52,744 bases of DNA, taken from the NCBI GenBank assembly GCA_029858505.1, contig JAOUEW010000011.1, positions 1 through 52,744 of the forward strand. The letters are read 5' to 3'. A model generated the notes under the pieces. It was not told where the DNA came from and did no database searches. It worked only from the letters and a program-made list of their open reading frames with translations. Shown here piece by piece: positions 35,010 through 43,188 of this stretch. The position numbers and the translations under genes are program-made. The stretch's first letter is position 1. The number at the start of each line of letters is the position of its first letter. The DNA comes from Deltaproteobacteria bacterium. Its GTDB lineage: Bacteria > SAR324 > JACQKK01.

Positions 35010-36665
35010 ATGAATAACATCTTTTCAGATGTTCATTTGGCCCAGGCCGGTGGGGCCGGCATGAAAAAGGAGAACCTCATGAATGACCTTTCACCCGCAA
35101 ACGCCACGCTTGAAATCGAACGTCTCACCGCCGTGCTGGACGGGCTGGGGACGAACGTGCTGGTGGCCGACCGCGACCGTAACCTTATTTACATGAACCC
35201 CCGCTCGCGCCAAACGCTGAACGGGCTGGCCCGCCAAATTTTGGACCAAATGGGCTTGAGCGTGGATGAAATGCAGGGCGGCTCCATTGACCGCTTTCAC
35301 AAAGACCCCAAACGCATCGCCCGCATTTTAGCGGACCCCCGGAATCTCCCCCATACCGCGGTGATTGACCTGGGCGACCGCAAACTGAACCTCAACGTGA
35401 ACGCGGTCATGTCTTCCCACGGTGAGTTCATCGGCACGGTGGTGAACTGGGCCGACATCACCGATAAAATTAGCCTGGAAGAAGAACAGGCCCGCACCAG
35501 CAACATGGTCGACACGGCCAACATCAACATGATGATGGCCGACCGTGATTTAAAACTGGTGTACATGAACCAAGCCTCCAAAGAGACCTTCCGCCAGATT
35601 GAAAAAGTATTGCCGGTGAAAGCCGCTCAGATGGTGGGCAATTCCATCGACATCTTTCACCAGGACCCCCAGCGGGTGCGAAAGCTGCTGAACAACCCGG
35701 CCAACCTGCCCCACCAAGCCGAAATCGAAATCGGCGGAGAGTGGCTGAAGTTGAACATCGTGGCTATTCTGAACAAATCTGGTGAGTATGTGGGGCCCAT
35801 GGCCTCGTGGAACCGCATCACCCAAGAGCGGATCAACCGCCAGCGCGACGAGCAGGTACGCAATGACGTCACCGTCATCGCCAGCGAGGTGGAAAATTCC
35901 TCCCGCCAGATGATTCAGATCGCCAATATTTTGGCGGCCAACACCGAGGAAAACTCCAGCCAAGCCTCCAACGTGTCGTCGGCGGCTGAACAGGTAAGCG
36001 GCAACGTAAGCTCCGTGGCCACGGCGGTGGAAGAAATGAGCGCCACCATCCGGGAGATTGCCAAAACCGTGGGGCAGTCCTCCGAGGTCACCCAACAAGC
36101 CGTGGGGCTTTCTAAAAACGCCGGGAAAATCATCGCCCTGCTGGGAGAGTCTTCCAAAGAAATCGGCAAGGTGACCCAGGTCATTTCCAACATCGCCCAA
36201 CAGACCAACATCCTGGCGCTGAACGCCACCATCGAGGCCGCCCGGGCTGGCGAAGCCGGCAAGGGATTCGCCGTGGTGGCCAACGAGGTGAAGGAACTGG
36301 CCAAAGAAACCTCCAAGGCCACCGAGGACATCACCACCAAAATTGAAGACATCCAACGCAGCGCCAACGAAGCGGTGAACTCCATCGAGGAAATCAACCG
36401 CATCATGAACGAGGTGGACAAACTCTCCACCACGGTTTCCAGCGCGGTGGAAGAACAATCGGTCACCACCAACGAGATCTCCCGCTCCATGAGCGAGGCC
36501 TCCTCCGGGGTGAACGAAATCGTCCGCAACATTACCGGCGTGGCCGATGCCGCCAAAGAAGCCTCGGAAAAGACCGCTCAAACCAAAGAGCAGTCGGAAA
36601 AGCTGGGGAACTTCGCCAAACAACTGGGCGATATCGTCAAGCTGTTCGAGCAGGGGAAGAAATGA
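35010..36665 (+). CDS. Soluble PAS-PAS methyl-accepting chemotaxis protein
   Basis: A 551-residue cytoplasmic receptor with no membrane segment. Two PAS-like modules repeat the same pattern: VLVADRDRNLIYMNPRSRQT ... IDRFHKDPKRIARIL and MMMADRDLKLVYMNQASKET ... IDIFHQDPQRVRKLL. The signalling domain has the highly conserved hairpin tip IAQQTNILALNATIEAARAGEAGKGFAVVANEV (shown in part) and coiled-coil arms. PAS modules suggest sensing of redox, gas or a small cytoplasmic ligand. ATG 35010 is preceded by AAGGAG; a near-copy of the same ribosome site and start (AAGGAGAACCTCATGAATGA) recurs 69 nt later at ATG 35079. Its stop overlaps the next gene (ATGA). Confidence 0.93.
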   Translation: MNNIFSDVHLAQAGGAGMKKENLMNDLSPANATLEIERLTAVLDGLGTNVLVADRDRNLIYMNPRSRQTLNGLARQILDQMGLSVDEMQGGSIDRFHKDPKRIARILADPRNLPHTAVIDLGDRKLNLNVNAVMSSHGEFIGTVVNWADITDKISLEEEQARTSNMVDTANINMMMADRDLKLVYMNQASKETFRQIEKVLPVKAAQMVGNSIDIFHQDPQRVRKLLNNPANLPHQAEIEIGGEWLKLNIVAILNKSGEYVGPMASWNRITQERINRQRDEQVRNDVTVIASEVENSSRQMIQIANILAANTEENSSQASNVSSAAEQVSGNVSSVATAVEEMSATIREIAKTVGQSSEVTQQAVGLSKNAGKIIALLGESSKEIGKVTQVISNIAQQTNILALNATIEAARAGEAGKGFAVVANEVKELAKETSKATEDITTKIEDIQRSANEAVNSIEEINRIMNEVDKLSTTVSSAVEEQSVTTNEISRSMSEASSGVNEIVRNITGVADAAKEASEKTAQTKEQSEKLGNFAKQLGDIVKLFEQGKK

Positions 36666-37321
36666 CCCTTCCCCTGGTGTTCTTCACCGACTTTGTCTGA
36701 CCCTTTTGCTTCATCGCGGAGCAAAGCAGCCTGGTCAAGTTGTTAGCCACATTCGACATGGCGCTGGAATGGCGGGGGTTTGAACTGCACCCGGAAACCC
36801 CGCCGGGAGGCCGCCCCTTGTCGGATTTGTTTCCCCCGGAACGTTTACAGGGGATGGACGAATACCTGAACCGTTTTGCCCAAGGGTTTGGGGTGGCCCC
36901 CTTGAAACCCGCCTCCTGGTTGCCCAACACCCGCCGGGCCCTGGCCCTGGCCGAACTGGCCCGGGAGCATGGCGCCTTGGAGCCCTACCGCCAAGCCGCC
37001 ATGGAAGCCCATTGGCGGCGTGGGCTCAACCTGGAGGATGAGCAGGTGCTGGAAGACTTGGCCCTGGGGGCTGGCCTTCCCGCAGGGTCCGCAGAGGCTT
37101 CCAAAGACGCCCGCTATCTGGACCGGATTGACCAAACCCGCCAGGAAGCCATGGCCATGGGAATCCAATCCATCCCGACCTTTGTGTTTGGCTCCCTGGG
37201 CGTGGTGGGCTGCCACCCCTTCGACACCCTGGCCCAGGCCGCCCGAGAAGCTGGCGCCCAGCCCAAAGCCTCTCCTCCCGCCCCGACATTTCCCCTGGGA
37301 GAAATAAAGGGGGATAACTAA
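36662..37321 (+). CDS. DsbA/FrnE-like oxidoreductase with in-frame UGA, probable selenoprotein
   Basis: A 219-residue thioredoxin-fold protein of the DsbA/FrnE/2-hydroxychromene-carboxylate isomerase family. ATG 36662 overlaps the receptor stop (ATGA). The N-terminus reads MTLPLVFFTDFV-TGA-PFCFIAEQ: the TGA at 36698-36700 sits exactly where family members have the first Cys of CPxC, giving a U-P-F-C redox motif if read as selenocysteine (residue 13). The reading frame stays open and family-like on both sides: EWRGFELHPETPPGG, then QEAMAMGIQSIPTFVFG with the cis-Pro. A hairpin follows the TGA. Ordinary gene calling would start later and lose the active site. Alternative: a point-mutated pseudogene, disfavoured by the second case at 41656. 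Confidence 0.8.
36703..36726 (+). promoter_or_regulatory. Candidate SECIS hairpin of the DsbA-like gene
   Basis: It starts 3 nt after the TGA. CTTT(T)GCT pairs with AGCAAAG, 7 bp with one bulged U, around the loop TCATCGCGG in which two more weak pairs are possible. The bulged U and G-containing loop fit bacterial SECIS elements, but the loop lies only about 10-12 nt after UGA, closer than usual. Confidence 0.45.
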
Positions 37322-40407: not shown

Positions 40408-41355
40408 TTACTTCCCTTCTTCTTTTCGCCAGGGTTCCTCACCCTCCGCATATCCTTCCGGGTCCTGGTATTCTGCCGGTTTGAAAGCCCCTTCCAAGGC
40501 CCGGTTGATCTTGCCGAACAGGCCCATCAAAATCCCCATGTCTCGCTTGTCGGGATCGATTCTCCGGAACAAATGCCGCACCATGGCGGGAATGGGCCGG
40601 GGGGTCCCATGCCCCAGGAACCGGCTGCGGACCCCGGCTTCGGTCACCAATTTGTCCAGTTGGGAAAACTCCCCCTGGGTGGGCATCACCCGTGGCTCTG
40701 TAAAGTGAGGGTGAGTGGTGGAATGCTCCACCGCGGCGCCCCCCAGGGCCCGGGTGATTTCGTACAGAGCCAACAGCACAGACTGCGACAAGTTGAAGGA
40801 GGGATTGGCCCCCCGAGATGGAATGCGCACCAGCCAGCGGCAGGCGTTCAGATGGCGGCGTTCCAGGCCGTGGTCCTCCGGCCCGAACAGCAGGGCATAT
40901 TGGGGGCCAGGGTTGTCCGTCGTTTGGCTGGCACTAGGCTCTCCCCCTTCTTTGGCCCCCGCTTTAGCCTCCTCTTTGTCCTCAACTGCTGTCAAATTCT
41001 CTGCCAAATTCTCTGCCAAATTCTTTGCCAAATTCTCCGCTACTTGGTCCACCCATTCCGGCAGGGTCAGGTGACGGGGGCGGTCGGCCCCCTCCCTGGC
41101 AGAAAACCCCACCACCTGGGTCATGGGGGCCAGGGCCGAATCCAGATCGTCGTGCATGTTGGCCCCGGCCAGCACGTCGGTGGCCCAGCAGGCTGCGGTT
41201 TCGGCAATGTCGGGCTTGTAGTTTTGGGGCGACACCAAATGCAGGTTCGCAAAGCCAAAATTGCTCATGGCCCTGGCCACCGCCCCAATGTTCAGGCTAT
41301 TCCCCGGCTCCACCAGCACAATGTGAAAATGGTTCTGAAAAATCGAACGGGCCAT
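40408..41355 (-). CDS. SPOUT-family RNA methyltransferase, TrmJ-like
   Basis: A 315-residue SpoU-type methylase. Motif 1 is HIVLVEPGNSLNIGAVARAM, motif 2 YALLFGPEDHGLERRHLNAC, and motif 3 IPSRGANPSFNLSQSVLLALYE. TrmJ methylates the 2'-OH of tRNA residue 32; the order and C-terminal helical extension (EFSQLDKLVTEAG region) match TrmJ better than TrmL. A charged insertion of about 45 residues (VAENLAKNLAENLAENLTAV, then EDKEEAKAGAKEGG) sits between motifs 1 and 2 and is encoded partly by a 12-bp tandem repeat. It is convergent with the small membrane protein gene. Confidence 0.88.
   Translation of the reverse strand: MARSIFQNHFHIVLVEPGNSLNIGAVARAMSNFGFANLHLVSPQNYKPDIAETAACWATDVLAGANMHDDLDSALAPMTQVVGFSAREGADRPRHLTLPEWVDQVAENLAKNLAENLAENLTAVEDKEEAKAGAKEGGEPSASQTTDNPGPQYALLFGPEDHGLERRHLNACRWLVRIPSRGANPSFNLSQSVLLALYEITRALGGAAVEHSTTHPHFTEPRVMPTQGEFSQLDKLVTEAGVRSRFLGHGTPRPIPAMVRHLFRRIDPDKRDMGILMGLFGKINRALEGAFKPAEYQDPEGYAEGEEPWRKEEGK
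40993..41040. repeat. 12-bp tandem repeat within the TrmJ-like gene
   Basis: Four head-to-tail units of CAAATTCTCTGC (the third has TTTGC, the fourth TCCGC). In frame they encode a repeated Ala-Glu/Lys-Asn-Leu tetrapeptide. The unit is a multiple of 3, so expansion keeps the reading frame. Confidence 0.9.
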
Positions 41356-41454: not shown

Positions 41455-41694
41455 TCAGTCGTTGTCCGACAACAATAGCTCCAACTGCCGTTGGTCAAAC
41501 CCCACCACAATGTCGTTGCCGATCACATACACCGGGGTGGTGAACACCTTCATCCGCCTTAAGTCTGCCAAAGCCGAACTGTCGGTGGTAATATCTCGTT
41601 CGGTAAACGAAAACCCTCGCCGGGAAAGCCACGCTTTCCCCTCATCGCAGAACATTCAGCCAGGCTGTGAATACACGGTGACTTGGGGCGGCAC
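41455..41694 (-). CDS. Glutaredoxin-like protein with in-frame UGA, probable selenoprotein
   Basis: A 79-residue glutaredoxin/NrdH-type protein. From GTG 41694 the frame reads MPPQVTVYSQPG-TGA-MFCDEGKAWLSRRGF. The TGA (41656-41658) occupies the first Cys of the CxxC active site, so the motif becomes U-M-F-C with Sec13. FTTPVYVIGNDIVVGFD supplies the cis-Pro TTPV and GF motifs that bind glutathione, and the length is right for a small glutaredoxin. Calling from the downstream ATG would lose the first strand and active site. A strong SECIS-like hairpin follows. The ribosome site is weak. It is in line with purB upstream (63 bp) and the TrmJ-like gene downstream. Confidence 0.82.
41622..41640 (-). 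promoter_or_regulatory. Candidate SECIS hairpin of the glutaredoxin-like gene
   Basis: On the minus strand GGGAAAG pairs perfectly with CTTTCCC around the 5-nt loop CGTGG. The loop begins 22 nt after the UGA and has G in its first two positions, both within the known range for bacterial SECIS elements. Confidence 0.65.
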
Positions 41695-41757: not shown

Positions 41758-43188
41758 CTACAAAATACCCTCCGGGCGGTAGGCTGCCGCCTGGGGATGC
41801 TTTTGGGTGAGTTCCTGGACCTGGGCCAGAAAGGCATCCACTTGGGCCGGGGCATCGCCCAGGAACTGTTCGGGGCGGGCCAGCACAGCCTCGCAGGCGG
41901 CCTGGTCCAGGGGAAAGGCCGGGTCGGCCCCCAACCTGGCGGCCAGGTTGTTCTCCGCCAAGCGCCCCTCCCGCAGGGCCCTGGCAACCTCCACGGCGTG
42001 GTTTTTAATGATCTCGTGGGCGGATTCACGGCCCGCCCCCTGCTTCACGGCTTCCATCATCAGGGTAGTGGTGGCCAGGAAAGGCAGCTGCCGCCGCACC
42101 TCGGCGGCGATGGACGCCTCGAACACTTCCATTTCCTCCATCACCGTCAAGAAGGTTTCCAGGCTGCCGTCGGCGGCGTACATGGCCCCCGGCAGGGCCA
42201 CCCGCCGCACCACCGAGCAAGATACGTCTCCCTCGTTCCATTGATCGCCCGCCAGCCGCTCCGTCATGGCCAGAAACCCCGCCAGCACCGCGTGAAAGCC
42301 GTTGATCCGCTCGCAGTTGCGGGCATTCATTTTGTGGGGCATGGCCGAAGAACCCACCTGCCCCTTTTTGAAGCCCTCGCTCACCAGTTCGTGGCCGGTC
42401 ATCAGCCGAATGTTCCGGGCCACGTTCGACAGCCCCGCCGACAGTTGATACACCACCGACACCGCCTCGAAGTCTAAACTTCTGGGGTACACCTGCCCCA
42501 CGTTGTCCAACACCCGGTTGAACCCCAGTTCACGGGCCACCACCTGTTCCAGCTTCCGGGCGGCTTCTCCCGAACCCAGCAGGGTGTGCTGGTCCAGCCG
42601 GGTGCCCACGGCGCCCTTCAGGCCCCGCAAGGGGTAACGCTCCAGCGAAGCCGCCAGCCGCTCCAGCCCCAGCAGAATTTCTTGCCCCCCCATGGCCAGC
42701 CGCTTGCCCAGGGTGGTGGGCTGGGCCGGCACATGGTGGGTGCGCCCCACCAGCAGGGTGGCCCGGTGCTCCTGGGCCCGGCGGGCCAGGGCCCCCAGGG
42801 CCGACACGGTTTTGTCCCGCAGCAGGGCCAACGACCGCCGCACCTGCAGCATCTCCACGTTGTCGGTCAGATCCCGGCTGGTCATGCCCTTGTGAAGGTG
42901 TTCGTACCCCGCCAGGGCGTTGAAGGCCTCGATGCGGGCCTTCACGTCGTGGCGCAGTTCCCGTTCCCGGCGGTCCATGTCGGCCAGGTCCACCCGGTTC
43001 TTCACCTTCTCGTAGGCCTGGATGGCCTCCACCGGAATGTTCACCCCCAGCTCCCGCTGGCCCTTCATCAGGGCAATCCACAACTCACGCTCCAGCACCA
43101 CCCGCCCCGCGGGGCTCCAAATGGCCAGCATGGGGGCGCTGGCGTAGCGGTGGGCCAGCACGTCGGGAATCATCGGTCGCTCAGCCAT
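41758..43188 (-). CDS. purB: Adenylosuccinate lyase
   Basis: A 476-residue homotetrameric lyase acting twice in purine synthesis (SAICAR to AICAR and adenylosuccinate to AMP). Signatures: HKGMTSRDLTDNVEMLQVRR, VGRTHHVPAQPTTLGKRL with the general-acid His, and the fumarase-superfamily loop VGSSAMPHKMNARNCERING with the catalytic Ser. Length and domain order are normal. The MITE-like element lies upstream, just past its start. It precedes the glutaredoxin-like gene on the same strand. Confidence 0.96.
   Translation of the reverse strand: MAERPMIPDVLAHRYASAPMLAIWSPAGRVVLERELWIALMKGQRELGVNIPVEAIQAYEKVKNRVDLADMDRRERELRHDVKARIEAFNALAGYEHLHKGMTSRDLTDNVEMLQVRRSLALLRDKTVSALGALARRAQEHRATLLVGRTHHVPAQPTTLGKRLAMGGQEILLGLERLAASLERYPLRGLKGAVGTRLDQHTLLGSGEAARKLEQVVARELGFNRVLDNVGQVYPRSLDFEAVSVVYQLSAGLSNVARNIRLMTGHELVSEGFKKGQVGSSAMPHKMNARNCERINGFHAVLAGFLAMTERLAGDQWNEGDVSCSVVRRVALPGAMYAADGSLETFLTVMEEMEVFEASIAAEVRRQLPFLATTTLMMEAVKQGAGRESAHEIIKNHAVEVARALREGRLAENNLAARLGADPAFPLDQAACEAVLARPEQFLGDAPAQVDAFLAQVQELTQKHPQAAAYRPEGIL

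Follow-up and report, generated by a model that had tools for sequence, protein, structure and literature searches.

Selenocysteine (Sec)-containing glutaredoxins with a UxxC active site were described in 2005 from ten Sargasso Sea sequences, according to the passages on this family in PMC1088965, and the corresponding entries of later catalogues list them among the experimentally verified selenoprotein families (PMC1794560, PMC9312934, PMC13188914). The glutaredoxin cGrx1 from Clostridium (Alkaliphilus) oremlandii, which is natively a selenoprotein and has the active site U(or C)PxC, was proposed to reduce MsrA (PMC7642778). In the family passages of PMC1088965, PMC1794560 and PMC9312934, no member from the lineage studied here was found.

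The gene analysed here lies in a 52,744-nt stretch of DNA (hereafter the window), with which contig 3 of a 2.79 Mb, 97% complete genome begins. It occupies positions 41455..41694 (240 nt, 79 aa), the coordinates correctly given in an earlier sequence-only reading, and lies on the minus strand. Read from 41694 to 41455, the frame comprises a GTG start, 11 codons, an in-frame UGA at 41658-41656, 66 codons and a UGA stop at 41457-41455; no strong ribosome-binding site was found before the GTG. Translation through the first UGA yields VPPQVTVYSQPGUMFCDEGKAWLSRRGFSFTERDITTDSSALADLRRMKVFTTPVYVIGNDIVVGFDQRQLELLLSDND. The Pfam Glutaredoxin domain PF00462 matches this read-through protein (E=2.7e-10; 40.7 bits, above the curated cut-off of 22.9) and runs across the UGA, confirming the glutaredoxin active-site context VTVYSQPG-U-MFC that had been proposed for it. 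In the resulting UxxC motif, UMFC, the UGA (41656..41658, minus strand) encodes position 1, and the codon of the resolving cysteine (41647..41649, minus strand) is invariant in our alignment A1, as are T49-P50 of the T-P loop. A genome-wide search with PF00462 returned three places including this gene, the other two being without a stop.

The gene lies between two neighbours encoded on the same strand. Upstream is purB, encoding adenylosuccinate lyase (41758..43188, minus strand; TIGR00928, 375.8 bits), and downstream is a gene for a SpoU/TrmJ-type RNA methyltransferase (40408..41355, minus strand; PF00588, E=2.1e-22; TIGR00050 below its cut-off). An orthologue in another genome (G003), 48% identical to the window protein, has an ATG start preceded by an AAGGAG site, and purB lies directly upstream of it as in the window, the two purB products being 73% identical; the methyltransferase gene is absent from the G003 locus. 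Between purB and the Sec gene, the G003 locus (L128, G003:C166) carries a stem rich in C and G with a run of T behind it, a candidate terminator or attenuator; at the corresponding site the window has GCCCGC-GGTT-GCGGGC.

The single-sequence search of genome and viral contig collections found no relative, and an alignment-based search returned 43 loci encoding relatives with a pattern that demands a Cys codon and is blind to Sec forms. With the read-through protein as query, the four closest relatives, from other genera of the same family, each proved to contain exactly one internal TGA, at the same codon. These four are all the single-domain relatives found in the taxonomic family besides the window gene, which brings the count of members with UGA at this codon to 5/5 with the window gene included. 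The same codon is UGA in all five glutaredoxin-DinB_2 fusions (~250 aa, five genomes), within PGUSSC or PAUTSC. These fusion loci, L110 (G001:C155), L109 (G005:C78), L108 (G008:C334), L111 (G020:C4) and L112 (G002:C379), have UxxC and a common SECIS register. The word DinB is absent from the 2026 selenoproteome review PMC13188914, and the glutaredoxin-DinB_2 fusion may be a selenoprotein architecture not described before. When 37 short rows were placed in a tree, Sec took three changes on the best tree, with a bootstrap range of 2-5 and the window gene in no starred clade; a tree of such short proteins does not separate a single Sec origin from several.

In all homologues aligned, the UGA occupies the position of the catalytic cysteine. 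Downstream of the UGA, the window gene and its G003 orthologue differ with a dN of 0.65 and a dS of 1.77 (dN/dS ~0.37), and dN/dS in other Sec pairs ranges from 0.12 to 0.43 over the same part. The conserved UGA and this purifying selection downstream of it therefore leave practically no room for decay or sequencing error.

The UGA is followed, at 41622..41640 on the minus strand, by the hairpin GGGAAAG-CGUGG-CUUUCCC (-10.9 kcal/mol). Its geometry is exactly as first reported, with a perfect 7-bp stem, a 5-nt loop and 22 nt from the UGA to the loop. It matches the bacterial SECIS (bSECIS) model quoted in PMC13188914, falling within every limit of that model (loop of 3-9 nt, stem of 4-16 bp, G in loop positions 1-2, 16-37 nt from the UGA, MFE <= -7.5), and its loop, C-G-U-G-G, conforms to the pattern N1-G-[G/U]-N-N2 published for such loops (N1/N2 = C-G). 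The sequence-only reading had called it a strong SECIS-like hairpin, which needs one correction: taken by itself it is weak evidence, and it convinces only through its covariation across genomes. In this GC-rich window, a hairpin of equal or greater length was found under the same rules at 4.8% of randomly chosen positions and for 4.4% of all its TGA trinucleotides, and the folding of the 52-nt stretch exceeds that of its shuffles by just 1.25 s.d. The hairpin alone was thus rejected as proof of Sec, given that 4-5% of window positions equal it.

The comparison across genera settles what one hairpin cannot. Seven Sec genes share the register (the window gene, its G003 orthologue and the five DinB fusions) and align without gaps after the UGA. 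With this alignment as sole input, RNAalifold returned a consensus fold that is exactly the window hairpin. Pairing was observed in 85.7% of cells versus 42.9-57.1% in slid versions of the alignment, and six cells were changed on both sides versus 1.7 in shuffles. None of 500 shuffles matched the observed pairing or covariation score, a count that is not to be taken as a probability for seven sequences that are few and related. In 7/7 genes, pair 20-36 is G-C, U-A or C-G; it links the second base of one codon to a Ser codon's wobble base. Comparison with Cys homologues, already suggested in the sequence-only reading, showed that the SECIS hairpin is absent from them, with a mean of 2.8/7 positions paired in the same register among 37 sequences. 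This register is missing from the single-domain genes of three genomes (G001, G002 and G008), whose possible stems of 5-6 bp, with longer loops, are no better than chance.

The genome also encodes the machinery for Sec incorporation, namely tRNA-Sec (63.8 bits, anticodon tca), SelB (352.7 bits), SelA (469.9 bits) and SelD (362.3 bits). The organism had been predicted to use selenoproteins, a prediction to be abandoned if this machinery were absent, and all four components are present. The selD gene (L079, G000:C2:215-1141) carries one in-frame TGA, so that selenophosphate synthetase is probably a selenoprotein itself. SelA scored above its cut-off in 45 of the 58 genomes of the relatives set, and Sec use is therefore general in the lineage. 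The second UGA-for-Cys gene noticed in the window is also real: a DsbA-like selenoprotein gene at 36662-37321 on the plus strand, with a DSBA domain (Pfam E=1.1e-27 when read through) and a UGA at 36698-36700 in a UPFC motif. All nine relatives inspected have UGA at the same codon, in the context FSDY[IV]-U-PWC or similar. A search of the first 70 nt under the strict bSECIS rules found no hairpin; a stem begins directly after the UGA.

Three other explanations of the in-frame UGA were weighed. If one genome is taken alone, an in-frame stop resembles decay, and the window gene has no ATG start, so that a pseudogene or an assembly error might be suspected, in which a Cys codon TGC or TGT became TGA and the fragments do not form one protein. 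This is highly improbable in view of the TGA that four other genera and five fusions keep at this codon, the selection acting downstream, the presence of the Sec machinery and the conserved RNA pairing. With the UGA kept in four relatives that were assembled independently and in five fusions, sequencing error and decay, which the sequence-only reading had called unlikely, are untenable. Decoding of UGA by SelB is generally inefficient, which lends some plausibility to a regulated stop, whereby the gene would mostly yield a 12-residue peptide and the full-length Sec product only in selenium-replete cells; conservation of the downstream protein shows selection on the full-length form, and this reading is likewise highly improbable. 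A changed genetic code in this genome, with UGA read as another amino acid such as Trp, can draw on the in-frame UGA and nothing further. It is the most improbable of the three, as alignment of all homologues puts the UGA at the catalytic Cys, a second UGA terminates the same gene, and tRNA-Sec, SelB, SelA and SelD are all encoded.

The gene structure, the Sec machinery, the conserved UGA, the purifying selection, the RNA covariation and the predicted fold described below thus point to a functional selenoprotein, with a probability that we put at about 96%: a small single-domain glutaredoxin of the YruB/NrdH-like branch in which Sec replaces the nucleophilic cysteine of a UxxC site. Standard gene callers halt at the UGA and so miss this protein and its relatives or report them as fragments, an annotation that is corrected here.

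An AlphaFold2 model, computed with Cys in place of Sec, adopts a glutaredoxin fold (pLDDT 96.3, pTM 0.85), in which residue 9 lies just ahead of helix 1 and Pro50 just ahead of the third strand. The best folds retrieved by Foldseek were cGrx1, BC3987 and NrdH, with an rmsd of 0.8 Å and a TM score of 0.90 for cGrx1 (7c10). During translation, SelB would bind the hairpin, 22 nt past the UGA, and bring Sec-tRNA-Sec, and synthesis would pass the first UGA to end at the second. From the precedent of cGrx1, we infer that Sec9 (counted within the 75-aa domain), where helix 1 begins, would attack disulfides or selenosulfides of a partner and that Cys12 would resolve the intermediate, the oxidised U-C pair then being reduced again.

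Regarding the reducing side, a search of the genome for glutathione synthetase PF02955 found none, and other types of the enzyme could escape it. For this reason, GSH by itself is probably not the reductant, the absence of a PF02955 match being mild counter-evidence to GSH as the sole reductant. MsrA, the partner proposed for cGrx1, is not supported here: no PF01625 was found in the genome, and other types could likewise escape this search. The lack of a detectable MsrA or glutathione synthetase raises the question of the substrate of this selenoredoxin and of its reductant. Elsewhere in the genome (L002, G000:C4:721886-722062), one 507-aa open frame encodes both a glutaredoxin (CPYC) and a thioredoxin reductase (CATC), and relatives have 404-449-aa open frames with a glutaredoxin match. 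As a speculation, a thioredoxin-reductase-type enzyme such as the product of this frame is a candidate for the reducing side.

Several curated models were tried on the protein. The NrdH-redoxin model TIGR02194 (44-45 bits, cut-off 85.75), the YruB-family model TIGR02196 (58 bits, cut-off 88.55) and the NCBIfam Uxx-star model NF041212 (49.3-50.2 bits, cut-off 66 bits) were all rejected. The protein nevertheless resembles the Uxx-star families (NF041212, NF041114, NF041211, NF047338), whose cut-offs it does not reach, in its glutaredoxin-like character and the site of its Sec, whereas the listing for UXX-star family 1 gives UxxT, without the resolving cysteine (PMC13188914), in contrast to the UxxC of the window gene. 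It is also similar to NrdH-redoxin and YruB-type glutaredoxins, with NrdH structures among its best folds, and differs from them by Sec in place of Cys. The gene may belong to a lineage-specific set of UxxC redoxins, single-domain and DinB-fused with one SECIS register in common, which would score below all curated NCBIfam models and occur in bacteria with no detected glutathione synthetase or MsrA. Such a set would be a selenoredoxin subfamily apart, with a reductant and a target specific to it, rather than GSH-dependent glutaredoxins, a tentative proposal to which we give slightly less than even odds.

Among solved structures, cGrx1 (PDB 7c10, 7c12, 7c13) is the best sequence match (profile E=5.5e-22; 37% identity), and the predicted fold of the window protein is close to its Cys form. 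Unlike cGrx1, however, the window protein has UMFC rather than UPxC, and its genome has neither a detected MsrA (PF01625) nor a detected glutathione synthetase (PF02955). With the bacterial Sec-glutaredoxin family (PF00462/COG0695), it shares the PF00462 domain, the UxxC site and a bacterial SECIS downstream. The gene is thus a new, well-supported member of a kind known since 2005, and adds to the catalogue a Sec-glutaredoxin from a lineage that generally uses Sec.
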